A DNA stretch of 32,892 bases from positions 1 to 32,892 of the forward strand of contig PKTF01000384.1 in the NCBI GenBank assembly GCA_002869275.1, read 5' to 3'. A program made the translations under genes and the position numbers. The notes beneath the pieces are model-generated. The model saw only the letters and a program-made list of their open reading frames with translations, made no database searches and had not been told where the DNA came from. Shown piece after piece: positions 3,965 to 21,269 of this stretch. Position 1 is the first letter of the stretch. Every line of letters begins with the position of its first letter. Source of the DNA: Ignavibacteria bacterium (GTDB lineage: Bacteria; Bacteroidota; Ignavibacteria; SZUA-365).

Positions 3965-6586
3965 ATGACAGTTCGACGAACAATACGTACCCGTGGAAGG
4001 ACCGCTCTGGTCCTTTCACTGTTCCTGCTGCTATTTCTGATCAACGCGAACGCCAACACCAACGGGTTCGAGATGGAATGTTCTGTGGCGGGACCGGACG
4101 CGGTTTTTTTCGACAAGGTGAATTTCAACACCTATCTCCCGAGCAGTTTCATCATCGATGTGCTCCTGGTGAACACGGGCTCGACTCCCGTCGACAGTGT
4201 GGTCGCCTTCCCACGTTCGAATCAGCGCTTCACAGTTATCTCGGATCCGAGTATCCTTCTCACCAATCAGCTGCTGCCGGGTGACAGTGCGCGTGCGACA
4301 TTCGAGCTTCAGGTGAATCCCCGAAGTACCAGCGGATTCGATACCATCTTCGTTGCCATCTCCGGCAAGGAAGGTGCACGGACGGAATGCCAGCTTGTGA
4401 TCTGGGTCGAAAAGGAATACAAGCCGGATAACATCCTGACCTGTCCCGCACCGGGAAGCATCAGTATCAGTTTCGTCGATACGCTGAACAGTTACATCCC
4501 CGATCCTATCCCCGTATACCTGAGCGTGATCAACAACGGCGATGCACCATCGAAGGAAACCCGCCTGCTGTTCGCTGCGACGGAAGGCATCACACCGGCG
4601 GACGGACAGAGCCGCACACTTGATCTCGGGGTACTTGCGCCTATGCAGCGCATTGATACAGTGTTTTACCTGCGTGCGGTTCCTCGAAGAAACGACACGA
4701 CGGTGACGCTGCCGTTCACCGTGCAGGGAAAAGGCGGACTTGGCGACAGGATAATCGAAAGCGGCTGCGAACACGACATCGACATACCCCCGATCCGGGA
4801 GGTGCTGTTCGAGCTCGAGTGTGAAAGCGCACCGAAAATCGAATTCGTTGACGGGCAGTATAATCCCAACCCCTTCGACTGGGAAGTCGTGGTACGCAAC
4901 ACCGGAAACAGCCGCGCAAAAGATGTTCGCGCCGTGGTTTCGTTACCCGTGGCCTACGTGCTCGAAGCGCCATCGACATCGGAAATTATCATCGGAGACA
5001 TGGATGCGTTTTCCGAGACGACCGTGTCATGGAAAATCAGGGCACGTGAGGTTTTTGAACCCGACACGAGCGAACTCCGCGTGCTGGTGTTCGACATGTT
5101 CAACCGTACTGCGGAATGTGGTGACAGTCTGATCTTGCCGGCGATGCGCGAACCCGATCTCGAGGTAAGCTGCGAAATCGTCCCCGACACCATTCGCGTC
5201 AATACGCAGAACGGCCTGTATCAACCGACGGACTTTACGTTTACTGCGATTCTCCGCAACATCGGTACTGATCCAGCGGACTCCGTGTATGCTGAGATCA
5301 TCATCGCGGATCCGGATATCAGGCTGCTGGAACCTGAGCAGACACGTGTATTTGTCGATGCCGAGATCGCACCCTCGGCGTTGAAGCAGGTTGAATGGCG
5401 CATTGCGCCGCTGCCCACGCCACAACCTCGCGACCTCGAAATTCGTCTGCGCATTTCCAGCGGAAATAATCCGACGGTAACGACGGCATGTACCGTTCAC
5501 ATCGAGGCCGCCCTGCTGCCCGAATTGCACTGCGCAGCGGCGACGCTCCCGGAAGACACGCTGCATTACAGCATTGCGACCCTGGAATATGATCCACTGC
5601 ATTTCACCGCAACGTTGCGTAACTCCGGAAGCATCGCAGCACAGGAGCTCGAAGCGACCCTGCTTCTGCCACCCAATATCAGTCTGCCCGCAACCGAGTC
5701 GGCTATCAAGTATCTCGGCCGACCGCTTCCAGAGGATTCGACATGGACAGTGCAGTGGGAGTTGGTTCCGGAGAAAAAACGGAACGGGACTCTCGACACG
5801 ATTCGCGTTGAATTTCGCGCCGGCGAATTGACGGCCGAATGCTTCGATGCCATCTTCATCATCGGGATTCCTCCTGTGACTGTATTCACGGTTCCCCGCA
5901 ATATCGTCGAGCGCCATGGACGTGAATTCACAGTTCCGATTCTCATCGATGAATCACAGAACAAAGATATCCAGGATATCGAACTGTTCATCAACTACGA
6001 TGCATCCCTGATCGACTTCATCGAATGGGAGCGTGACAGTACCCTGCTTGCTGATGACTGGAGCATCAGCGCCTCTGGTGGTGACGGACGGATTTCTTTC
6101 CATGCCAAACGATCGGATGAAGCGCTCGAGGGAATTGGTGAATTGATCCGCATGCGTTATCGTGTGCGTTTCGGTGATGGCGACGACATCCTGCGCTGGG
6201 CTGTCAGTCCGGTAGAATTCGATTCCCTTGCCAGCGCAGTAAATCGTGGCAGCGTGCTGGCCCGGTATTATAACGGACAGGTCATGGTCAGCGGTGACTG
6301 CCTGTATCCACTCGAAGCGACGAAGCAGTTTGTCATCGGGAACAGTCCGAATCCCTTTAACCCCGTCACGGTTATTCACTGCAGCATATCGGAAACGCGA
6401 GAGGTCTCGCTTGAAGTCCGTGACGCCCTCGGTCGTCAAGTGACGACGCTGCACGAGGGAACATTGGAAGCGGGGACTCACAGATTTCATTTCGATGCTG
6501 CCGGCCTGCCGAGTGGTTATTATTTTGCACTCTTACGTCTCGATGGCAGGCCGATCTCCATCCGAAGGATGCTCCTTCTGCGCTGA
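3965..6586 (+). CDS. T9SS-secreted CARDB-like repeat protein with cohesin-like domain
   Basis: This 873-residue protein is a shorter paralogue of its upstream neighbour. A signal peptide is clear (Arg-rich start, Leu-rich core, NANAN cleavage region near residue 30). Five repeats of about 120 residues begin with Cys near 39, 160, 286, 403 and 523, each closing with a second Cys and carrying the same N-x-G turn as the upstream protein. A cohesin-like domain (about 638-770) comes next, then the T9SS sorting tail (about 794-873, SPNPFNPVT, ending RRMLLLR). It lacks the VWA domain and the first cohesin-like domain of its partner. The ATG is 10 nt after the preceding stop with a short AAAGG just before it. 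It is probably exported across the outer membrane and anchored or released by the T9SS sortase. The binding partner is unknown; the shared architecture suggests a common surface structure. Confidence 0.88.
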   Translation: MTVRRTIRTRGRTALVLSLFLLLFLINANANTNGFEMECSVAGPDAVFFDKVNFNTYLPSSFIIDVLLVNTGSTPVDSVVAFPRSNQRFTVISDPSILLTNQLLPGDSARATFELQVNPRSTSGFDTIFVAISGKEGARTECQLVIWVEKEYKPDNILTCPAPGSISISFVDTLNSYIPDPIPVYLSVINNGDAPSKETRLLFAATEGITPADGQSRTLDLGVLAPMQRIDTVFYLRAVPRRNDTTVTLPFTVQGKGGLGDRIIESGCEHDIDIPPIREVLFELECESAPKIEFVDGQYNPNPFDWEVVVRNTGNSRAKDVRAVVSLPVAYVLEAPSTSEIIIGDMDAFSETTVSWKIRAREVFEPDTSELRVLVFDMFNRTAECGDSLILPAMREPDLEVSCEIVPDTIRVNTQNGLYQPTDFTFTAILRNIGTDPADSVYAEIIIADPDIRLLEPEQTRVFVDAEIAPSALKQVEWRIAPLPTPQPRDLEIRLRISSGNNPTVTTACTVHIEAALLPELHCAAATLPEDTLHYSIATLEYDPLHFTATLRNSGSIAAQELEATLLLPPNISLPATESAIKYLGRPLPEDSTWTVQWELVPEKKRNGTLDTIRVEFRAGELTAECFDAIFIIGIPPVTVFTVPRNIVERHGREFTVPILIDESQNKDIQDIELFINYDASLIDFIEWERDSTLLADDWSISASGGDGRISFHAKRSDEALEGIGELIRMRYRVRFGDGDDILRWAVSPVEFDSLASAVNRGSVLARYYNGQVMVSGDCLYPLEATKQFVIGNSPNPFNPVTVIHCSISETREVSLEVRDALGRQVTTLHEGTLEAGTHRFHFDAAGLPSGYYFALLRLDGRPISIRRMLLLR

Positions 6587-7492: not shown

Positions 7493-10400
7493 TTATGCAT
7501 GCGCGTACTTGGCAACGGCATCCTTGTTGAAATCGACCGCGACCAGTTTGGACACACCTTCTTCCTCCATGGTGACGCCATAGAGGGTATCGGCGGCGGC
7601 CATCGTGCGTTTGTTATGCGTGACAACAATGAACTGCGTATTCTTGGAAAAATCACGCAGAATCTTGATGTAGCGATCGATGTTGGCGTCATCGAGCGGC
7701 GCATCGACCTCATCGAGAATACAGAAGGGACTCGGCTTCACCAGGTAGATCGCGAAGAGCAGTGCGATAGCGGTGAGCGTCTTTTCGCCACCCGAAAGCA
7801 TGTCGATGGAGTGGGGACGCTTCCCGCGGGGCTTGGCGATGATATCGATCTTTGCCTCGAGGGGATCGTCATGTTCCTGCAAAATCAGATCCGCTTCGTC
7901 ACCTTCGTCAAAGAGGGACTTGAAGATTTTGATGAAGTTTTCGCGCACCAGTCCGAAAGTTTCGAAAAACTTCTGCTTCGCGGTTTCATTGATCTCCCGA
8001 ATGGTATCGCGAAGAGTCTGCTCTGACTGAATCAGATCATCACGCTGCGTCGTCAGAAGATCGAGACGGTCTTTCTCCTCTTTCCATTCCTCGAACGCAA
8101 GGGGATTGACCGGTCCCAGTCCGCGAATCTTCTGGCGGAGGTCGTTGATCTCCTCCTTTGCCTGCGCGAGATCGAACACATCGTCTTCTTCTGAGCTCAC
8201 ACGTTTGAGTTCCATCTCGAACTCATCGCGTGCATGTTCTTCGAGCGAACTGATACGCTGCTTGATTTCGCTGACCTTCAGTTCGATCTCATGTACAAGA
8301 TTGATATTCTGATTTTGCTGCTGGCGCTCTTCATGCAGCGTTTCTTCGATACCGCGCAGCTCGGTCCGTTTGGCTTCAAGTTCCTGCTCGATCGCAGAGA
8401 GCCCCTCCTTGCCGGTGCTCTGTTCGCGCTCCAGTTCCTCGAGGTTCCTGCCGAGATCAGCGATCTGGTCGACGAGTCCGGCCGCCGCTTCTTCCGACTG
8501 AACAATCTCCCGAGCTGCATTCTCAAGGGCCTGCTCCGTCTCATGGAGCGAAGAGCTGAGCCGCTCGAATTCATTGCGCAGATTCTGTATCTCGCCGCGT
8601 TTTTCGACGACGGCAAGATTGGCCGTGTTGGCTTCTTCATTGCTGCGGTTATAGGCGCTTTCCAATTCCGTCAGCAGAGAATTTTCTCTCCGCACATCAT
8701 CTTCGACGCTGGACTGCTGAACACGGAGTTCCTCGATCTGCGGTTCCAGGTCCGCCTGTCGCGCATCCATTTCCTGATTCTCATCGGCGAGGCGCTCGCG
8801 TTCCTCTCCGTTCTTCTGCAGGATCCGCTCGAACTTTTCGATTTCGAACATCATCTGTGCGACACGTCGTTCATGTGCCGAAAGGTCCTGCTGGGTCTGC
8901 TTCATTTTTTCGGCATAAGATTTCAGATCGATGCCGCTGTAGTCGAGGTTCTTATCTTCGAGCCGCTCCTGGTTTTCCACCAGCTGGGCTTTGAGCTTTT
9001 CGACTTCACGCGAGAGAGTGGCAATCTGATCTTTTTTTCCGATCATGCTGCCTTCTTCTTGCCCGTGGCTACCACCTCGCACCAGTCCGTTGCTGTCGAA
9101 CATGTCACCGGTCTGCGTCACGCAGCGCAGATCCGGGTATTCCCTGATGCAGGAATGCGCGACCTCGGCATCTCGCACGATCAACACTTGCCGCATCAGC
9201 ATGCTGAACAGGTTATGATACTGCGTGTCGTACTGCACGAGGTCGATCGCCCAGCCCAGGATACCATCTCCCGCAATGGGGAAGGTCGAGGACGTGGCTT
9301 CGGGGATGCGGGAGAGAACGGCGAAGGTGGCTTTTCCCTTGCGGTGCTCTTTCAAATTCTGCAGACCACTGATAGCCTCAGACACATCGTTGACGAGCAG
9401 GTAGTGTGCGGCCTCTCCAAGCACGGCTTCCACCGACACGCGTAGGTTGTCACGGGTGTTCACCGCGTCGGCGATTGTCCCATAACGCGAAGTGGACCAG
9501 TCACGGTTTCGCAGGAGATGCTGTACGCTTTCGTTATATCCCTCGAGACGATCGACGAGCCCGTTGATGAAATCGATACGCGTCATCTTTTCGCCGATCA
9601 TTCCCTGGATTTCAAAGGCGCGATTCTGCAGAAGATCGATTTCATTTCTCAGGGACTGCTTACGTTCCTCCATCGCCTGGAATTCACGTTCGGCTTCGAG
9701 TACTGTCTCCGAGAGCGTGGCCTGACCGGCATCCTCCTCGGCCATCTGCGCACGCAGCGTTTCGAGATGTTCCGAAGCATCGAGGTCTTCGTCCGAAAGT
9801 CGCTGCAGTACCGAATCAATTGTTTCACGTCGCGCGTTGAGCTTCTCCAGTTCATTCTGCAACAGGGCGCCCTGCTGCATCAGTTCCATTCGGCGCTGCT
9901 GCCGCGTTTCCGCCTGCAGTTTTTTCTGCGACACCTGCTCCTCGATATCCCGATGGGCGCTGCGGCGTGATTCGCTCTGCTGCTCAAGCAAACCGAGTTC
10001 CTGCGAATTCCCCTCGAGCCGGACTGTCAGGTCTTTCTTTCCCTGCTCGATCTCAGATATACGGATCTCATAACCTTCTTTATCCTTCTTCAATCGCTCG
10101 GCCCTCTGGAGGAGGGAGCGCTCCCGTTCTTCATTGACGAGCAGGTTCTGGCGTGTTTCACTTATCCGGGACACAAGTCCTGAATACTCTTCCCGCCGCG
10201 CATCGAGGCGCTGTTCAATTTCATTTTCCTCATTGCGATATGCCGAAAGCAGCGTTTCCTCTTCTTCCATGCGGCTGTTCATCGATTCGCGTTTCTCGAT
10301 GGTCTCGGCTAAACGACTCTCGAGCGGCTCAAGTCTGCGGAAGAGGTTATCGTAGTCGCGCTGCAGCACATCGACCTCCAGCACCCGGAGGCGGTCCATG

Positions 10401-11053
10401 TATTCGTTGTAGCGTTCCGCCTTTTTTGCCTGCCGGTTGAGCGAGTTGACGGACTTGCTGACTTCGGCAATGATGTCATCAACGCGCAGCAGGTCCGATT
10501 CGACATCGCTGAGCTTGCGCAGCGCTTCTTTCCTGCGGGCCTTGTATCTCGTCACCCCCGCCGCTTCCTCGAAGAGACGTCGACGTTCTTCGACCTTGTC
10601 GCTCAGAATGGTCTCCACCATTTTCAGCTCAATCACCGAATAGGCATTCGCACCCATGCCGGTGTCCATGAAAAGGTGAAGGATGTCTTTGAGACGACAG
10701 GTCGTCCGATTCATCATGTATTCGCTTTCACCCGAACGGAACACACGGCGGGTGATAGTCACCTCGTTGTAATCGAGAGGGAGGATCCCCTTGTTGTTTT
10801 CGATTGTGAGGGAAACCTCCGCCAGCCCGATCGGCTTTCGCATCTTCGTGCCGTTGAAGATGACATCTTCCATCTTGTCGCTGCGGAGGGTGGAGTAGCG
10901 CTGCTCCCCGAGTGCCCAGCGAAGGGCATCGACGATATTGGTCTTTCCACAACCGTTCGGACCGACGATGGCAGTGATGCCGTCATTCAGCACAAGATTG
11001 GTTTTGTTAGCGAAGGATTTGAACCCGAGGATTTCGAGCTTGCTGAGATACAT
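7493..11053 (-). CDS. smc: Chromosome segregation/condensation ATPase SMC
   Basis: This 1186-residue protein has the full bacterial SMC layout. The N-terminal ATPase half has Walker A GPNGCGKTN at residues 31-39. A long Glu/Arg-rich coiled coil follows, then a hinge at about 520-660 with the glycine-rich SNGLVRGGSHG segment, the returning coiled coil, and the C-terminal half with signature LSGGEKT near 1085 and Walker B CILDEVDAPLDD near 1112. Length is normal for the family. SMC dimers with ScpA/ScpB form a ring that extrudes DNA loops and individualises sister chromosomes; in studied bacteria ParB at parS loads it. Two parS sites lie about 3.3 kb upstream in this window. It starts 24 nt after the stop of the GH2-like gene and is probably co-transcribed with it. 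scpA and scpB are not in the window. Confidence 0.98.
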   Translation of the reverse strand: MYLSKLEILGFKSFANKTNLVLNDGITAIVGPNGCGKTNIVDALRWALGEQRYSTLRSDKMEDVIFNGTKMRKPIGLAEVSLTIENNKGILPLDYNEVTITRRVFRSGESEYMMNRTTCRLKDILHLFMDTGMGANAYSVIELKMVETILSDKVEERRRLFEEAAGVTRYKARRKEALRKLSDVESDLLRVDDIIAEVSKSVNSLNRQAKKAERYNEYMDRLRVLEVDVLQRDYDNLFRRLEPLESRLAETIEKRESMNSRMEEEETLLSAYRNEENEIEQRLDARREEYSGLVSRISETRQNLLVNEERERSLLQRAERLKKDKEGYEIRISEIEQGKKDLTVRLEGNSQELGLLEQQSESRRSAHRDIEEQVSQKKLQAETRQQRRMELMQQGALLQNELEKLNARRETIDSVLQRLSDEDLDASEHLETLRAQMAEEDAGQATLSETVLEAEREFQAMEERKQSLRNEIDLLQNRAFEIQGMIGEKMTRIDFINGLVDRLEGYNESVQHLLRNRDWSTSRYGTIADAVNTRDNLRVSVEAVLGEAAHYLLVNDVSEAISGLQNLKEHRKGKATFAVLSRIPEATSSTFPIAGDGILGWAIDLVQYDTQYHNLFSMLMRQVLIVRDAEVAHSCIREYPDLRCVTQTGDMFDSNGLVRGGSHGQEEGSMIGKKDQIATLSREVEKLKAQLVENQERLEDKNLDYSGIDLKSYAEKMKQTQQDLSAHERRVAQMMFEIEKFERILQKNGEERERLADENQEMDARQADLEPQIEELRVQQSSVEDDVRRENSLLTELESAYNRSNEEANTANLAVVEKRGEIQNLRNEFERLSSSLHETEQALENAAREIVQSEEAAAGLVDQIADLGRNLEELEREQSTGKEGLSAIEQELEAKRTELRGIEETLHEERQQQNQNINLVHEIELKVSEIKQRISSLEEHARDEFEMELKRVSSEEDDVFDLAQAKEEINDLRQKIRGLGPVNPLAFEEWKEEKDRLDLLTTQRDDLIQSEQTLRDTIREINETAKQKFFETFGLVRENFIKIFKSLFDEGDEADLILQEHDDPLEAKIDIIAKPRGKRPHSIDMLSGGEKTLTAIALLFAIYLVKPSPFCILDEVDAPLDDANIDRYIKILRDFSKNTQFIVVTHNKRTMAAADTLYGVTMEEEGVSKLVAVDFNKDAVAKYAHA

Positions 11054-11077
11054 GGTTTCTGTTCTATCTGAAGAAAA

Positions 11078-13723
11078 CTACACCGCCACGTTTGCGAACG
11101 ACCACCAGAGATCGATGTAGTACCGCATGTAGGCGACAATTTCAAATTCGTTATTGAGGGAGATGAAGCAGTACGCCAGGCCGGCTCCGATCAGGACAAA
11201 ACCAGCCAGGTACGCAAAGAGCGGGCGAATGTCAAAAACAATCGCAGAACCTTTCAGCATTCTGCTGACAATCCAGATGTGGAATATCACCAGAACAAGG
11301 ATGATCAGGATTTCCAGAAGTACCGGATCCATGATGCGGTACAGCACCATGCCGAACGGTGCAAGAATGATCATCGGCAGGGCCGACCACATACTCACAC
11401 TGTATGCATCGAACATGAATACCTTGCGGCGGACAATCAGGGACAGCACGCGAAGGGACAGGGCGAAGAACAGCAGCAGGACGAAGAAAAGCACTGTCAG
11501 AACCAGGGTGTGCTCCAACGGATTCCATGCGGCGAAATTCAGCCACTGCTTCAACCAGATCGTATGCACGAACTGTGAAAGTACTTTATCCATCAAAATG
11601 TTGATGCGCCAGAAATACAGAACGTTCGCATATAGCAGCGCAGCGGAAAACGAACCGAGAAGCCCAACCATCGATGTCTGGAATATCGAGAGCATGCGCT
11701 GATCACGTACGTCCGCATAGAAATTGTACGGGCGGAGAAGTGAGCGGACGACATTTTCACGGAAACGGCGGAACAGGTTATATACGATCGCGAAAATGAA
11801 AATGATGAGAATACCGAAAATGACGAAGCTGACCGGATGCTGCTCCTCATAATTTCCCGTAACAAGAACCGGCGGCTTTTCATTGTTGAAACTGCTCTTG
11901 AGCACATCGTACGCGATACGCTTCTGCCGAAATCGATCAACCACACCGGTGGTGGCGACGTACTCATACACACGATCCACCGCCATGATCGGACGCGAGA
12001 CGGCCCAGTCAGAGAACGAGTGAACGGTCACTCCGTCATATCCGAGATCTCTGATTTCCTTGTAGAGCTGAAGATAAAACTGTCCCTGTGCGTCAATGGA
12101 GCGAGGATCACTGTACCCATTGTAGTTTCCGATCTGCACCGGATACATCAGCGAAGACACAATGACAGGGTGCCCTTCGAGCTTGTCTGCAAGTCCGCTG
12201 ATCATTGCGCTGACCGATTCGGTTGACTGCGGCATGATATCCAGGCCTGCAAAATGCAATCCTTCCGGCAGTTCCGATGGAAGCATCGACTGGAAGGTCA
12301 TATACTTCAGCAGTCTCTCCGATTCGCGAGTCACCTGAGAGACATTGTCGACATAATCCAGAACCGCAGGTGTCAGGTGCTGCACCCCCTGTGCCAGTCC
12401 GAGCGCAATCAGCGACGGGCGGTTGAAATCACGTGCAATGACCTCGCGGGCGATATTTTTCGCCGAGGTGTGAATACCAGCTTTGGAGAGGAGAGAAGAC
12501 GGTACATCCTGCAGCGGAAGGTCGTGAAACACCAGCAGGCCATAGCGGTCACACAGCGCCATGAACGCGGGATGCGGTGATCCAGCGGCGAGCCGTACGG
12601 TATTGGCGCCGAGATTCTTCATCATCAGCACATCCCGTTCCATCTCATCAAAGGAAAGAGAGCGCCCGTGCCGCGGGGAATCCTCGAGATACGTCATCGC
12701 CTTGATGTACAGCGGTGATCCATTTAAAACGAGATTGCCGTCCCGCACTTGAATACTGCGGAATCCGATAGGCTGGCGGGTTTCGTCAAGCACGACACCG
12801 CCACGAAGCGTGCGCTGGCGCAATTCGTAAAGATTTGGTGCTTCCGGAGACCAGAGATTCACTGAGGGAAGAGAGATCGATATTTCTACTTCTTTGAGAC
12901 GATCCGATTCGACCGTGACGCGCTGCGGCTCACTGCCGGCGAGAACAAGGCCGCTGATCGGTTCCACAATCTCTATCAGATGTTGTACGCTGGATTTGCC
13001 GAAGGACTGCGTGCCGCCGATGGTGTCGGAGGGGAGGGACGAAACTTCACCGGAGTTCAGAAGCGCCCGGTAATGCAGCCTGGCCGAACGTCCGGCGCCG
13101 GTGACCTGAGTGGTGACGAACGATTCCTGAACCCACACTCCCTGATGTGCCGCCAGTCCGATGTCGTGCACGATGCCGCCGTAATTCAGACGATCCCACA
13201 TCTGCTCATAGAGGGGAATGGTTTCATGCGTGTCGAGAAAATTATGCACGCTGATCTCAATGGAGTTCGTTCCCGGCTTGATGATACCCGGTGAGATCTT
13301 GAAATTGAACGAGGTCAATCCGGCGTGTTTTCCGATAAACTGACCGTTAATGGTTATTTCACAGTAATAGGAAATGCTGAGAGCGACGATCTGGAACACC
13401 GAACGCGAGGCCATGGCGCGGGGAACACTGAAGTCCCTGCGAAAGACGACGGCATGCCTGCCCTTGTATGACGAAGGAACGTTCACCTGCTTCCACGACT
13501 CGTCATCCTCTGTCCGATACTGCCACATGCCATTGAGATCAATGACGGAGCGATACTCGGATGGAGCCAGCAGTCCAGCGCTCTCCTCGCTGATAAGCGA
13601 ATTCCGCTGCTGCATGAAGGTCACCTGTGCGTGCGCCGAAGATGCGAGCAGCAGGAGAACAGCAACAACCGTCGCACCTCGAAGGTGCGTCCAGATTCGA
13701 CAGGAATACGTAGAAGGCTGCAT
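11078..13723 (-). CDS. GH2-fold membrane protein, probable catalytically inactive glycosidase fused to a six-helix domain
   Basis: Using ATG 13723 the product is 881 residues with a signal peptide (cleavage near AHA|Q, residue 32). An upstream TTG at 13747 lies at the predicted transcription start, so I prefer the ATG. Residues about 55-300 resemble the jelly-roll and Ig domains of glycoside hydrolase family 2 (NGMWQYR, GTNSIEI, LWSPEAPNLYEL), and about 300-610 the TIM barrel (KNLGANTVRLA, DRYGLLVFHDLP, FNRPSLIALGL). Where GH2 enzymes have GNE (acid/base Glu) this protein has AQG; where they have the nucleophile in a CEY-like strand it reads VIVSSLMYP. Both catalytic glutamates seem missing. 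The C-terminus from about 630 has six hydrophobic segments, and RSLLRPYNFYADVRD before the second resembles the entry to Yip1-like domains. It is likely an inner-membrane protein with a periplasmic carbohydrate-binding or scaffold head. Function unknown. Confidence 0.8.
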   Translation of the reverse strand: MQPSTYSCRIWTHLRGATVVAVLLLLASSAHAQVTFMQQRNSLISEESAGLLAPSEYRSVIDLNGMWQYRTEDDESWKQVNVPSSYKGRHAVVFRRDFSVPRAMASRSVFQIVALSISYYCEITINGQFIGKHAGLTSFNFKISPGIIKPGTNSIEISVHNFLDTHETIPLYEQMWDRLNYGGIVHDIGLAAHQGVWVQESFVTTQVTGAGRSARLHYRALLNSGEVSSLPSDTIGGTQSFGKSSVQHLIEIVEPISGLVLAGSEPQRVTVESDRLKEVEISISLPSVNLWSPEAPNLYELRQRTLRGGVVLDETRQPIGFRSIQVRDGNLVLNGSPLYIKAMTYLEDSPRHGRSLSFDEMERDVLMMKNLGANTVRLAAGSPHPAFMALCDRYGLLVFHDLPLQDVPSSLLSKAGIHTSAKNIAREVIARDFNRPSLIALGLAQGVQHLTPAVLDYVDNVSQVTRESERLLKYMTFQSMLPSELPEGLHFAGLDIMPQSTESVSAMISGLADKLEGHPVIVSSLMYPVQIGNYNGYSDPRSIDAQGQFYLQLYKEIRDLGYDGVTVHSFSDWAVSRPIMAVDRVYEYVATTGVVDRFRQKRIAYDVLKSSFNNEKPPVLVTGNYEEQHPVSFVIFGILIIFIFAIVYNLFRRFRENVVRSLLRPYNFYADVRDQRMLSIFQTSMVGLLGSFSAALLYANVLYFWRINILMDKVLSQFVHTIWLKQWLNFAAWNPLEHTLVLTVLFFVLLLFFALSLRVLSLIVRRKVFMFDAYSVSMWSALPMIILAPFGMVLYRIMDPVLLEILIILVLVIFHIWIVSRMLKGSAIVFDIRPLFAYLAGFVLIGAGLAYCFISLNNEFEIVAYMRYYIDLWWSFANVAV

Positions 13724-14396: not shown

Positions 14397-14412
14397 TGTT
14401 TCACGTGAAACA
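14397..14412. other. parS centromere site 1
   Basis: The 16-bp palindrome TGTTTCACGTGAAACA matches the conserved bacterial parS consensus bound by ParB. Its left half also belongs to a second palindrome, GAAACATGTTTC (14391-14402), which site 2 does not have. Confidence 0.93.
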
Positions 14413-14439: not shown

Positions 14440-14455
14440 TGTTTCACGTGAAACA
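14440..14455. other. parS centromere site 2
   Basis: A second perfect copy of TGTTTCACGTGAAACA, 43 bp from the first copy start to start. It ends 7 bp from the yidC stop codon. The terminator hairpin lies between the two copies. Confidence 0.93.
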
Positions 14456-14462
14456 CGGTCTA

Positions 14463-16361
14463 TCAGAATTTGCGATTCTTCTTCGCGGCTTTTCTGGATT
14501 TTTCCTGTTCTTTCGCTTTTTCCTGCATCGAGGACATTGCTCGCTCAGACCAGCTCTTCTTGTTCTTTCCGTCTTTCTTAACAACTTTGGTCAACGGTTC
14601 ATCTTCATGGCGTTTGTTGATCAGGTACTGCTGACCAATGGAAAGGATGTTAAACATGAAGTAGTACAGGTTCAGTCCGGAGGGGAAAGAGTTGAAAAGG
14701 AACCAGAACATCAGGGGCATGATATAAACCATGGACTTCTGACGCGGGTCATTCACTGTCATTTTCTGCTGAATGAACATGGTAATGGCCATCAAAAGTG
14801 CCAGTCCACTGATGAAGCTCATTCCGATTACGGGAAGTTTCATCGGGAGAGAAATCAGGATATCAGGTGCAGAAAGGTCATCGATCCAGAACATGAACGG
14901 TTGGTGTCTGAGCTCGATGGTGGACCTGAATATGGTGAAGAGTGCGAAGAGAATCGGCATCTGCAATGCCATTGGCAGACAGCCGCCTGCTGGATTCACC
15001 CCGTACTCTTTGTACAGCTTCATCATCTCGACGTTCTGCTTCTGCTGATCGTCTTTATATTTCTCCTTCATCTCGGTGATTATCGGCTGCAGCTTTTTCA
15101 TCCGCTGCATCGAGCGCATACTGCTCTTCGTCAGGGGATAAAGAATCAGCTTTACGATAATCGAGAAAATGATAATCACCCATCCATAGTTCGGAATGAA
15201 TGTGTGAAGGAAGCTGAACAGCGGCATAACGAAATATTCCGAGAACGGGCGAACCACGAATTCCCAACCCAGGCTCAGGATTTGCTCAAGGCCCTCGTGC
15301 TGAGCTTGAAGCAGATCATAATCCATCGGACCGATGAACATGACAAACTCAGATTTCTCTCTCTCGTTGCCGCGGTACCGTACTTTGATTCCGGCTTCAT
15401 ACAGTTCTCGCTGTCCTTCATTGGGAAGCGGCTTCATGATACCCTCGATATAGGTACCTGTACCCTTGAAGTCGTTCCTTGTAAGAAGCGCACTCAGGAA
15501 ATACTTATTATTAATCGCCACCCACTCGGTTTCGCCCTGCAGGTTTTCCTTCATCACTTCATCTGCATCATCGGCATTGAAGTACTGGCGTGAATCATCG
15601 ATAAAGACGTTTACTTCCGTGAAGCTCGCTTCTTCGACGCTGTTGCGCTCTGAATGTGCCGGCGAATGGATCGTCACCTGGTATTCATAGTTGGCAATGA
15701 CTTCCGCCATGTTCACCATCTCGATATCCATGTCCACACTGTAGGATCCGTTGCGAATCACATAATGCTTGATGATGGCAACGCTGTCACCCTGTACAGG
15801 GAGGATTGCATCAAAACTATAGGTCATGGAGTCCGCAAGCACGATGCGTCCGTTCTTTGGATACTCGTTAAATCGGAAATACAGATCTTTAGTATCCACA
15901 AAGCGCCCGTCTGTACTCGCGAAGACGATGTTATAGTCGCTGCTGCGCTTCCAGTCGAGCAGTTGCAGGGGGTTATCCCTCCACGTCGTGAACTCTTTCA
16001 GTGTCCATCGCTTCACCGAGCCTCCCTTTGTTGAGAAGACTGCTTCATACAAATCTGTTTCGACGGTGAACGTGGCATCGCTTCCGACAGCCAGATGGCC
16101 AAACCATTTTCCGTAGCGCTGTGTCGCCTCGTCCGATCCCAGGCTGTCAGACTGCTCCGTTGGGCCACTGAAACGATCTGTGGTCATGTTCCGGGCATTG
16201 TCCGGTTGTTCGTCGGCAGGCTGTGCCGCCTTCGCGCTGTCCTGTGCAAGTTCCTGCTCCTGCTGACGCTGAATTTCCTCTGCGTCAGGAGCCGTGTAGA
16301 ACATCCAGAGGACAAATAGGACTGCGATAATTACAAATCCGATAATAGCTTGTCTGTCCAT
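14463..16361 (-). CDS. yidC: Membrane protein insertase YidC
   Basis: The 632-residue protein has the Gram-negative YidC layout: an N-terminal membrane anchor (about 6-22), a low-complexity Gln/Ala/Glu linker, a large periplasmic beta-domain (about 85-355), then the conserved five-helix insertase core. Core signatures include LILYPLTKSSMRSMQRMKKLQP, here given only as its two ends LILYPLTK and RMKKLQP, then NPAGGCLPMALQMPI and FPSGLNLYY. The groove position that is Arg366 in E. coli appears to be Lys (IVKLILYPLTK), keeping the positive charge. The tail is Lys-rich, as in Bacteroidota, and could contact the ribosome. It inserts and folds inner-membrane proteins alone or with SecYEG. The gene starts 27 nt after yidD and ends at a terminator flanked by parS sites. 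Confidence 0.98.
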   Translation of the reverse strand: MDRQAIIGFVIIAVLFVLWMFYTAPDAEEIQRQQEQELAQDSAKAAQPADEQPDNARNMTTDRFSGPTEQSDSLGSDEATQRYGKWFGHLAVGSDATFTVETDLYEAVFSTKGGSVKRWTLKEFTTWRDNPLQLLDWKRSSDYNIVFASTDGRFVDTKDLYFRFNEYPKNGRIVLADSMTYSFDAILPVQGDSVAIIKHYVIRNGSYSVDMDIEMVNMAEVIANYEYQVTIHSPAHSERNSVEEASFTEVNVFIDDSRQYFNADDADEVMKENLQGETEWVAINNKYFLSALLTRNDFKGTGTYIEGIMKPLPNEGQRELYEAGIKVRYRGNEREKSEFVMFIGPMDYDLLQAQHEGLEQILSLGWEFVVRPFSEYFVMPLFSFLHTFIPNYGWVIIIFSIIVKLILYPLTKSSMRSMQRMKKLQPIITEMKEKYKDDQQKQNVEMMKLYKEYGVNPAGGCLPMALQMPILFALFTIFRSTIELRHQPFMFWIDDLSAPDILISLPMKLPVIGMSFISGLALLMAITMFIQQKMTVNDPRQKSMVYIMPLMFWFLFNSFPSGLNLYYFMFNILSIGQQYLINKRHEDEPLTKVVKKDGKNKKSWSERAMSSMQEKAKEQEKSRKAAKKNRKF

Positions 16362-19271: not shown

Positions 19272-21269
19272 CTATTTTTTAGTGAGGTAACGCTTGTAAA
19301 TGTCGTCGGTGAACTTCACGGCGAGACGCGAATACATGTCTACGTCATGCTTGATGAACAGCTCATCGATATACTCGGAAGCCTCACGCCACGTTGCCTT
19401 ACCGTTGATTGTCTGCAATGCGTGGGTGAATGCACTTTCGTTTTTCTGAAAAAGCTTCTTGACGTACTTCTTCTTGTCTGCATCTGGAATCTGCTTGGTG
19501 ATGTCACCGAACTGTGCCATGACTTCTTCCAGAGGAACAGCGGGTTCATCCTGAACTTCTTCCTCCTGCTCGTTCTCGGATTCAGGCGGCGTCTCCTCTT
19601 CCACGATGGGGATGTCATTCTCAGAAACCTTTTTCGCCGGCGCGGTCTCTTCGGAATCCATGTCATCGAGGTCGAGCTGCCCGAGAAGTTCCTCGGCAGG
19701 TTTGAGGGTGTCTTCTTCATCAAGTGAAATGCCGGGAAGTACCGCGTCGAGTGCGGCGCTCACATTCTCATCATCGTCGAGCTGCACGTCGGGTATGTCT
19801 TCTGCCTCTTTGTCCCAGTCGATCTCGAGTTCCTCATCTTCCAGTACCTCGTCATCGAGCGAAAGATCAGGGACATCATCAGAGACCGGCGTTTCAGGTT
19901 CCGGCGTGTATACCTCTTCCTCTTCCGCTTCCGGGAATTCCTCCTGGCCGACTTCCTCGATAAGAGCGTAGTCTTCCATTTCCTCCATGGACATATCCGG
20001 TATTTCGTCCCTCTCGTCGAGTTCGTTTTCGATCTCAAGAATCGATGTGTCAGTCGCACCCAGCTCTTCCATTTCCGGTTCATCTTCTTCGATTATCGCA
20101 TCGTCACCGGCAAGGAAGGCTTCGTCTTCCTCGGTGAATTCCTGCACGTCCGGCGGTGAGTCATCGATCAACTCCTCATCGTCGCCGAGATCGGGCAGCA
20201 CTTCCTCCACGAGCTCTTCGACGGCATCGGGAACCTCTATTTCCTGCGTAGGCTCTTCGTCGATGATCAAACCGTCCTCATCGAGCTCTGGAATGTTGTC
20301 AAGCGTATGCGCGGTAACGGAGTGTTCTTCTTCGCTGATGATGAAATCGAGGTCGTCGTCGTCGCCGATTTCCTTGCGGGTTCGGTCGACATGTTCGGGG
20401 GTTTCCACGTGCGGCACGTCGAAATCCTGTCCGGCTGTCACATTCCGCTCCGGCTTCATCGGTGTGGTTCCTTTCACGTGCTGACTCACGATTGTGGAAA
20501 TGTCGAAACTCATGGTATAGTCGACTTCACTGATGATCATCACCAGGTCGTGCAGCGTAATCTGTTCCCTCTGCTCTTTTTCACGGTCCAGACGCTCAAC
20601 AATAGCATTCTGCTTCTTGTCATCGAAGAAAATGGAGAGGGCTTCTATTGGAACGAACTTTTCGGCCGCTGCCGATTCGACCGCGAAAAGGTTGAAAATG
20701 GGCTCTGTCAGATGCGCCAGCTTTCTGCTGTCAAAACTGCGAACGACTTCCTGATCGATATATTCGAGCATCTCGGTGAATTTCTTCGACGTCATCACCG
20801 TCAGCTGCTTCTTCGTGAAATATTCCCGGAGAATGACCTGATAGTATTCATACTCCCAGAAGCACTGCAGCGATTCGAGAATATCATCCGTGGATGCGTG
20901 TTCGCGATCAGCAAAAAGATACTTCTCCAGTGTCCACTGCGGTCGACACACATAGTTGAAGAGCAGCTTGACGTTCTTTTCGAGCGTGCTCCTGTATTCC
21001 TCTTCGCTGAACACAGCATAATCACGTGCCTGTGAAATGATGTGTTCGAATACATTCCTGATGTCATCTTCATCGTAACGGAAGTGCGGAGAATTCAGAA
21101 GCCGTTCCTTCTCATCATCTATCCAGGACTCGACGTCACGCTCGAACATGCGCTTGAGTGCCCTGGGCATCTCCGATGCAAAGATCTGCTTCGAGCTGAT
21201 CGTGTCCTGATCATCCAGCGTCTCCTTCAAGAGAAACGCGATGGTGTCTTCAATTCTCCGTTCGAACAT
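19272..21269 (-). CDS. Unrecognised highly acidic protein upstream of obg
   Basis: I do not recognise this 665-residue protein. Three parts are visible. Residues 1 to about 280 look helical and globular, with many Phe/Tyr/Trp. About 285-570 is a low-complexity stretch dominated by Glu and Asp with Pro, Ser and Val, probably disordered. About 575-665 is a compact, more basic domain (IPDADKKKYVKKLF, then ATWREASEYIDELFIKHDVD). There is no signal peptide or membrane segment, so it is probably cytoplasmic. Overall it is strongly acidic. It ends 6 nt before obg and starts 112 nt after the nadE stop. An acidic tether between two folded ends suggests a scaffold or a nucleic-acid-mimic/chaperone role, possibly tied to ribosome assembly through obg; this is inference only. 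Confidence 0.8.
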   Translation of the reverse strand: MFERRIEDTIAFLLKETLDDQDTISSKQIFASEMPRALKRMFERDVESWIDDEKERLLNSPHFRYDEDDIRNVFEHIISQARDYAVFSEEEYRSTLEKNVKLLFNYVCRPQWTLEKYLFADREHASTDDILESLQCFWEYEYYQVILREYFTKKQLTVMTSKKFTEMLEYIDQEVVRSFDSRKLAHLTEPIFNLFAVESAAAEKFVPIEALSIFFDDKKQNAIVERLDREKEQREQITLHDLVMIISEVDYTMSFDISTIVSQHVKGTTPMKPERNVTAGQDFDVPHVETPEHVDRTRKEIGDDDDLDFIISEEEHSVTAHTLDNIPELDEDGLIIDEEPTQEIEVPDAVEELVEEVLPDLGDDEELIDDSPPDVQEFTEEDEAFLAGDDAIIEEDEPEMEELGATDTSILEIENELDERDEIPDMSMEEMEDYALIEEVGQEEFPEAEEEEVYTPEPETPVSDDVPDLSLDDEVLEDEELEIDWDKEAEDIPDVQLDDDENVSAALDAVLPGISLDEEDTLKPAEELLGQLDLDDMDSEETAPAKKVSENDIPIVEEETPPESENEQEEEVQDEPAVPLEEVMAQFGDITKQIPDADKKKYVKKLFQKNESAFTHALQTINGKATWREASEYIDELFIKHDVDMYSRLAVKFTDDIYKRYLTKK

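Follow-up and report, generated by a model that had tools for sequence, protein, structure and literature searches.

The loading of SMC by ParB at parS sites is established in bacteria. Other conserved neighbours of smc, in the rncS-smc-ftsY genes of Bacillus, have no known functional tie to it (PMC10979009). Among membrane proteins, the prokaryotic members of the Yip1 family appeared in a 2019 review without any reported function (PMC6682643), and YknW, a Yip1 protein of Bacillus, modulates transporter assembly (PMC4887032). The window analysed here is a stretch of 32,892 nucleotides from an Ignavibacteria bacterium (contig PKTF01000384.1), in which smc is preceded by a gene for a protein made of a signal peptide, a pseudo-GH2 part and a membrane domain, which we call GHM. 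Our literature searches returned no report of a fusion of GH2 to a membrane domain or of a pairing of GHM with smc.

The features of the locus are listed in Table 1. The open reading frame was present at the stated position; Pfam, a phmmer comparison with solved GH2 enzymes (E=1.7e-25), and the AlphaFold model searched with Foldseek all agreed on the GH2 fold that the original prediction had proposed for this open reading frame, and the GH2 motifs quoted there were found in the sequence. Pfam covered the Ig-like domain and the start of the barrel, while no model in the Pfam or NCBIfam searches covered the whole length of GHM. The AlphaFold model, made from 52 homologues, was confident along the whole length of the protein (pLDDT 90.4, pTM 0.86). 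The roughly 600 residues of its ectodomain matched GH2 enzymes (TM 0.85-0.86 by target length to 6ncw and 6ncx), with a jelly roll, an Ig-like domain and a (beta/alpha)8 barrel homologous to those of GH2, and the six membrane segments announced after the barrel were present as six helices. GHM is a secreted three-domain pseudo-GH2 followed by six membrane helices. Its translation could also start at a TTG located 24 nt upstream of the ATG.

Table 1. Features of the GHM locus in window coordinates and the basis of each assignment
Feature	Position	Strand	Basis
GHM, whole gene, 881 aa (ATG at 13723, stop at 11078)	11078..13723	-	Pfam, AlphaFold model
Signal peptide, aa 1-32 (...LLLASSAHA/Q, cleavage at the slash)	13628..13723	-	sequence reading; model helix 6-29
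GH2 N-terminal jelly-roll domain, aa 55-200	13124..13561	-	Glyco_hydro_2_N2 under Pfam cut-off; model strands, Foldseek coverage
GH2 Ig-like domain, aa 201-320	12764..13123	-	Pfam PF00703 (Glyco_hydro_2), E=1.2e-8
GH2 TIM barrel, aa 321-615	11879..12763	-	Pfam PF02836 (Glyco_hydro_2_C), E=3e-15; model, Foldseek
G446, in place of acid/base Glu	12386..12388	-	alignment with GH2 enzymes retaining both Glu
S524, in place of nucleophile Glu	12152..12154	-	alignment with GH2 enzymes retaining both Glu
TM helix 1, aa 631-650	11774..11833	-	model
Cytosolic juxtamembrane loop RRFRENVVRSLLRPYNFYADVRDQR, aa 652-676	11696..11770	-	family-weighted conservation, Lys/Arg counts per loop
Yip1-type 5-TM domain, about aa 664-862	11138..11734	-	PF04893 matches in other members; model pLDDT 92
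GHM-smc gap, 24 nt	11054..11077	-	no room for terminator
smc, 1186 aa, directly downstream of GHM	7493..11053	-	Pfam SMC_N and SMC_hinge
yidC, upstream neighbour of GHM in the window's order	14463..16361	-	Pfam, synteny
Perfect parS site TGTTTCACGTGAAACA	14397..14412	.	motif scan
Second perfect parS site	14440..14455	.	motif scan

The catalytic columns were set by aligning GHM with five GH2 enzymes from its own phylum, all of which retain both glutamates. This alignment put G446 (AQG) on the acid/base column, after barrel strand 4, and S524 (SSL) on the nucleophile column, in barrel strand 7, which bears out the earlier reading of AQG in place of GNE and of SSLMYP in place of CEY. Among 96 full-length homologues, a glutamate was present at the acid/base column in 7 and at the nucleophile column in 24; only the nucleophile was retained in 22 and only the acid/base residue in five, while 67 had neither. 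The question of whether the glutamates are absent in all homologues, raised with the original prediction, received a divided answer, since at least one was missing in 94 of the 96 but the two members of genus g32 (family f18) retained both, as GNE and TEYG. With 94 homologues lacking at least one glutamate and 67 lacking both, the loss is a trait of the family and not an error. A sequencing or assembly error, or a decay peculiar to the genome of the window, would be in keeping with the fragmentation of its assembly into 436 contigs, but neither glutamate was found in 12 of 12 members of the window's family and equal losses, with intact frames, were seen in at least 20 families. The homologues rule out a sequencing error behind the missing glutamates, and we consider the chance of any such artefact to be negligible.

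Comparison of the 294 barrel columns by family-weighted entropy ranked the acid/base column 137th and the nucleophile column 243rd for conservation. In a quick tree of the homologues and the five GH2 enzymes, GHM formed one clade separate from the enzymes, and at least 7 and 10 changes were required at the two catalytic sites. The low ranks of these columns and the widespread loss of the glutamates show that selection maintained the fold and not catalysis, which the family as such has ceased to need. A glycosidase that still works, using other residues or a non-classical mechanism, could be argued from genus g32, from the members that keep one glutamate (5 the acid/base, 22 the nucleophile) and from the strong conservation of the motif GN-NGYSDP-S--AQ past the nucleophile strand. 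However, both catalytic columns are variable and most homologues have neither residue, the GH2 part is wholly missing in family f12, and no alternative acidic residue specific to the degenerate members was found, the conserved D364, D490, D572 and E347 of the barrel being also present in intact GH2 enzymes. Catalysis by GHM is thus highly improbable.

The AlphaFold model showed that the C-terminal domain consists of one transmembrane helix, a basic loop and five further helices. The density of lysine and arginine was 0.23 in the loop that follows the first helix, against 0.07-0.10 in the periplasmic loops; the model and this bias together place the N-terminal side of the five-helix domain in the cytosol, an inferred topology equal to that published for Yip1 proteins (PMC6682643). 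The same loop, ahead of helix 2, was the best conserved 25-residue window in GHM when families were weighted. The Yip1 profile PF04893 matched 35 of 56 GHM members at E<=1 (best 6e-8), and its curated cut-off of 28.6 bits was passed by L039, L041, L061 and L064 (28.7-32.8 bits, profile positions 3-172 of 173), these full-profile matches coming from members of f5, f9 and f12. The C-terminus of the window's own protein, when searched alone in Pfam, gave no Yip1 match; its sole match, BscB_a-b (E=0.41), was rejected as noise. Searches of the membrane domain in NCBIfam gave nothing useful, and those against solved structures gave only weak cytochrome oxidase matches by sequence profile and no match under E=1.5 by fold. 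GHM had been predicted to be a membrane-anchored periplasmic protein with a putative role in carbohydrate binding or sensing, and a pseudo-GH2 does stand on the membrane, but what holds it there is a transmembrane helix with a five-helix Yip1-type domain, not a mere anchor. One family has lost the GH2 part but keeps the membrane part ahead of smc, which makes the membrane part the core of GHM.

A first search of 61 genomes found GHM in 59, and a class-wide search found it in 187 of 197 genomes, nearly always in one copy. The phylum sample had it in 59 of 61 genomes of the class and, beyond the class, in 12 genomes from four families; the genomes sampled were mostly MAGs and drafts. It is a core, near-universal single-copy gene of its class for a pseudoenzyme of the inner membrane, and sister lineages, presumably the Chlorobia, carry it too. 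In genus g16 of f12, GHM is a membrane-only protein of 258-300 aa directly ahead of smc, and six f12 genomes have no copy of GHM, smc being present in the one examined (G033). Within GHM, the closest association with smc is thus that of the membrane domain, and the protein as a whole is ultimately dispensable. Family f28 kept smc and has no GHM, and in G279 (f42) a barrel-like remnant with the membrane domain is not near smc. Co-loss as a reading of the absence of both GHM and smc from G199 was set aside, as adjoining genes are missing together in one assembly gap. In G039 (f17), whose genome is a single contig, the GHM homologue L060 is split between three reading frames, either by frameshift errors or by gene decay.

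Comparison of 97 GHM loci showed that smc was the next gene downstream in 78 of them, always on the same strand and in 20 families, and in f10 the two genes were located at a shared contig end (split contigs). The gaps were mostly between -1 and +33 nt, with the junctions TAATG (f4 and f14), TAAATG and TAGATG among f4, f14 and f9 and some start-stop overlaps. The gene upstream of GHM varied with the lineage (yidC, triosephosphate isomerase, endonuclease III or sugar kinases) while smc was constant. The original prediction had correctly put smc directly after GHM and had offered either a conserved link between envelope and chromosome or chance as the reason; the pairing with smc is conserved and not due to chance, because the whole arrangement recurs in at least 20 families. 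As the SMC and GHM trees gave broadly the same grouping of families, the pair appears to date to the ancestor of the group and to have been inherited mostly vertically.

GHM was located away from smc in the clade of f8, f16, f17 and f20, in some members of f5 and in f42. In L191 (G030, f16) and L195 (G203, f20), smc is preceded by genes whose sequences look like mreB, mreC and mreD; neighbours for which no family search was made were named by sequence alone. At L038, L040, L042, L045 and L152 (f8, f16 and f17), GHM stands head-to-head with the type IX secretion gene sprA, identified in its f8 copy by SprA_N (E=1.9e-48). In the 20 smc loci examined from lineages without GHM, a conserved gene ahead of smc was looked for and none matched the profiles. 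ScpA was present throughout the genomes, with scpA and parB located elsewhere; no SMC subunit is therefore missing for GHM to replace, and the idea of GHM as a substitute for ScpA was rejected.

In many families, the genes directly downstream include lpxB, lpxK and an acyltransferase-like gene, all of lipid A, and also a PEMT/ICMT-type methyltransferase. These envelope genes and the sprA neighbourhood of the unlinked copies favour an explanation in which GHM maintains the envelope and is mechanistically independent of SMC; its transcript in common with smc would be an old operon retained for control of dosage or growth rate. The pseudo-GH2 would then bind peptidoglycan, lipopolysaccharide or a secretion partner, and the Yip1-type domain would assemble or aid a membrane complex, much as YknW acts on a transporter. 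However, the loci of f1-f3, f12 and f41 have smc but not the lipid A genes, the membrane-only relic of f12 is still ahead of smc, and expression by itself does not obviously explain why a single neighbour was kept in 20 families. The lipid A genes, the proximity of sprA, the lineages with smc only and the rncS-smc-ftsY precedent make an envelope role almost as likely as a functional tie to SMC, and we place it somewhat below an even chance.

The two parS sites of Table 1 were the only ones with one mismatch or fewer in the window's genome, and they are located between yidC and GHM, on either side of a terminator-like hairpin. Eleven other genomes of f1-f3 had one or two parS sites at this position. 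Elsewhere in the class, eleven genomes (L232-L242) had the sites beside genes whose sequences look like mnmE and mnmG, which form the usual origin cluster; the sites were often about 1.9 kb apart, one on each side of mnmG. A general rule that parS stands beside GHM-smc was thus rejected, as it is true only for the window's order. Within that order, the position of GHM-smc next to centromere-like parS sites is suggestive of a pair that moved as a unit. In the complete genome G008, where the parS sites adjoin the GHM and smc genes, parB is at C1:2644701 and parS at C1:3590155, about 945 kb away. A ParB_N match was found in 56 of the 61 genomes searched and not in the window's own assembly (G000), in which its absence is probably a gap between contigs.

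The explanation that we tentatively prefer, without giving it quite an even chance, is that GHM is functionally tied to SMC at the membrane. It is favoured because GHM is near-universal and paired with smc, because the pairing outlives the ectodomain and because the best conserved loop is cytosolic; the adjacency of parS in the window's order also points this way. The association with SMC was judged from gene order, and the copies unlinked in f8, f16, f17, f20 and part of f5, together with the presence of smc without GHM in f12 and f28, argue against an obligatory role. If the tie is real, the membrane and cytosolic part of GHM would be the conserved unit and would act with SMC, or with an SMC loader, at the membrane; it could, for example, localise, anchor or regulate condensin close to the envelope, and the dead GH2 head may bind a periplasmic glycan or protein and so tune the action on the membrane side. 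Two narrower versions of the functional tie are each unlikely. One is a direct physical tether between GHM and SMC. The other, which we hold to be equally doubtful, is a transmembrane condensin partner whose dead GH2 head senses the periplasm while the Yip1-type domain and the loop position or regulate SMC at the membrane, next to parS in the window's order.

If the pairing is functional, GHM becomes a candidate for a membrane-side partner of the bacterial SMC complex, and a tie between chromosome condensation and the envelope becomes testable in cultured members. Even otherwise, GHM is a clear example of a core gene made from a glycosidase that was inactivated repeatedly, and through it a Yip1-type domain of prokaryotes gains a strong genomic setting. 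Two other genes of the window were also noted: a 665-aa open reading frame at 19272-21269, without a match in Pfam or NCBIfam and conserved upstream of obg in f1, and a secreted repeat protein at 3965-6586, which ends in a weak sorting tail for type IX secretion, is convergent to smc and is also conserved in f1.

Comparison with the GH2 enzymes (beta-glucuronidase, beta-galacturonidase and beta-galactosidase) showed that GHM has the same order of domains and the same HPS..A.G and SFSDW-type motifs, whereas it differs by G446 and S524 at the catalytic columns, by the fused membrane domain and by its near-universal presence in single copy. With the Yip1 family (PF04893, which includes the eukaryotic YIPF proteins and the YknW of Bacillus) GHM shares five transmembrane helices, a cytosolic N-terminal side and a C-terminus outside, but it adds a transmembrane helix and a large periplasmic pseudo-GH2 and is paired with smc. 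The rncS-smc-ftsY genes of Bacillus subtilis (PMC10979009) likewise unite smc with a conserved neighbour in one operon; the genes are different, however, and GHM is an upstream, membrane-embedded neighbour retained across several classes. Finally, ScpA/ScpB and the loader ParB are encoded by genes that are functionally tied to smc, and ScpA and ParB are present in genomes with GHM, but these proteins are cytosolic and differ from GHM in both sequence and fold.
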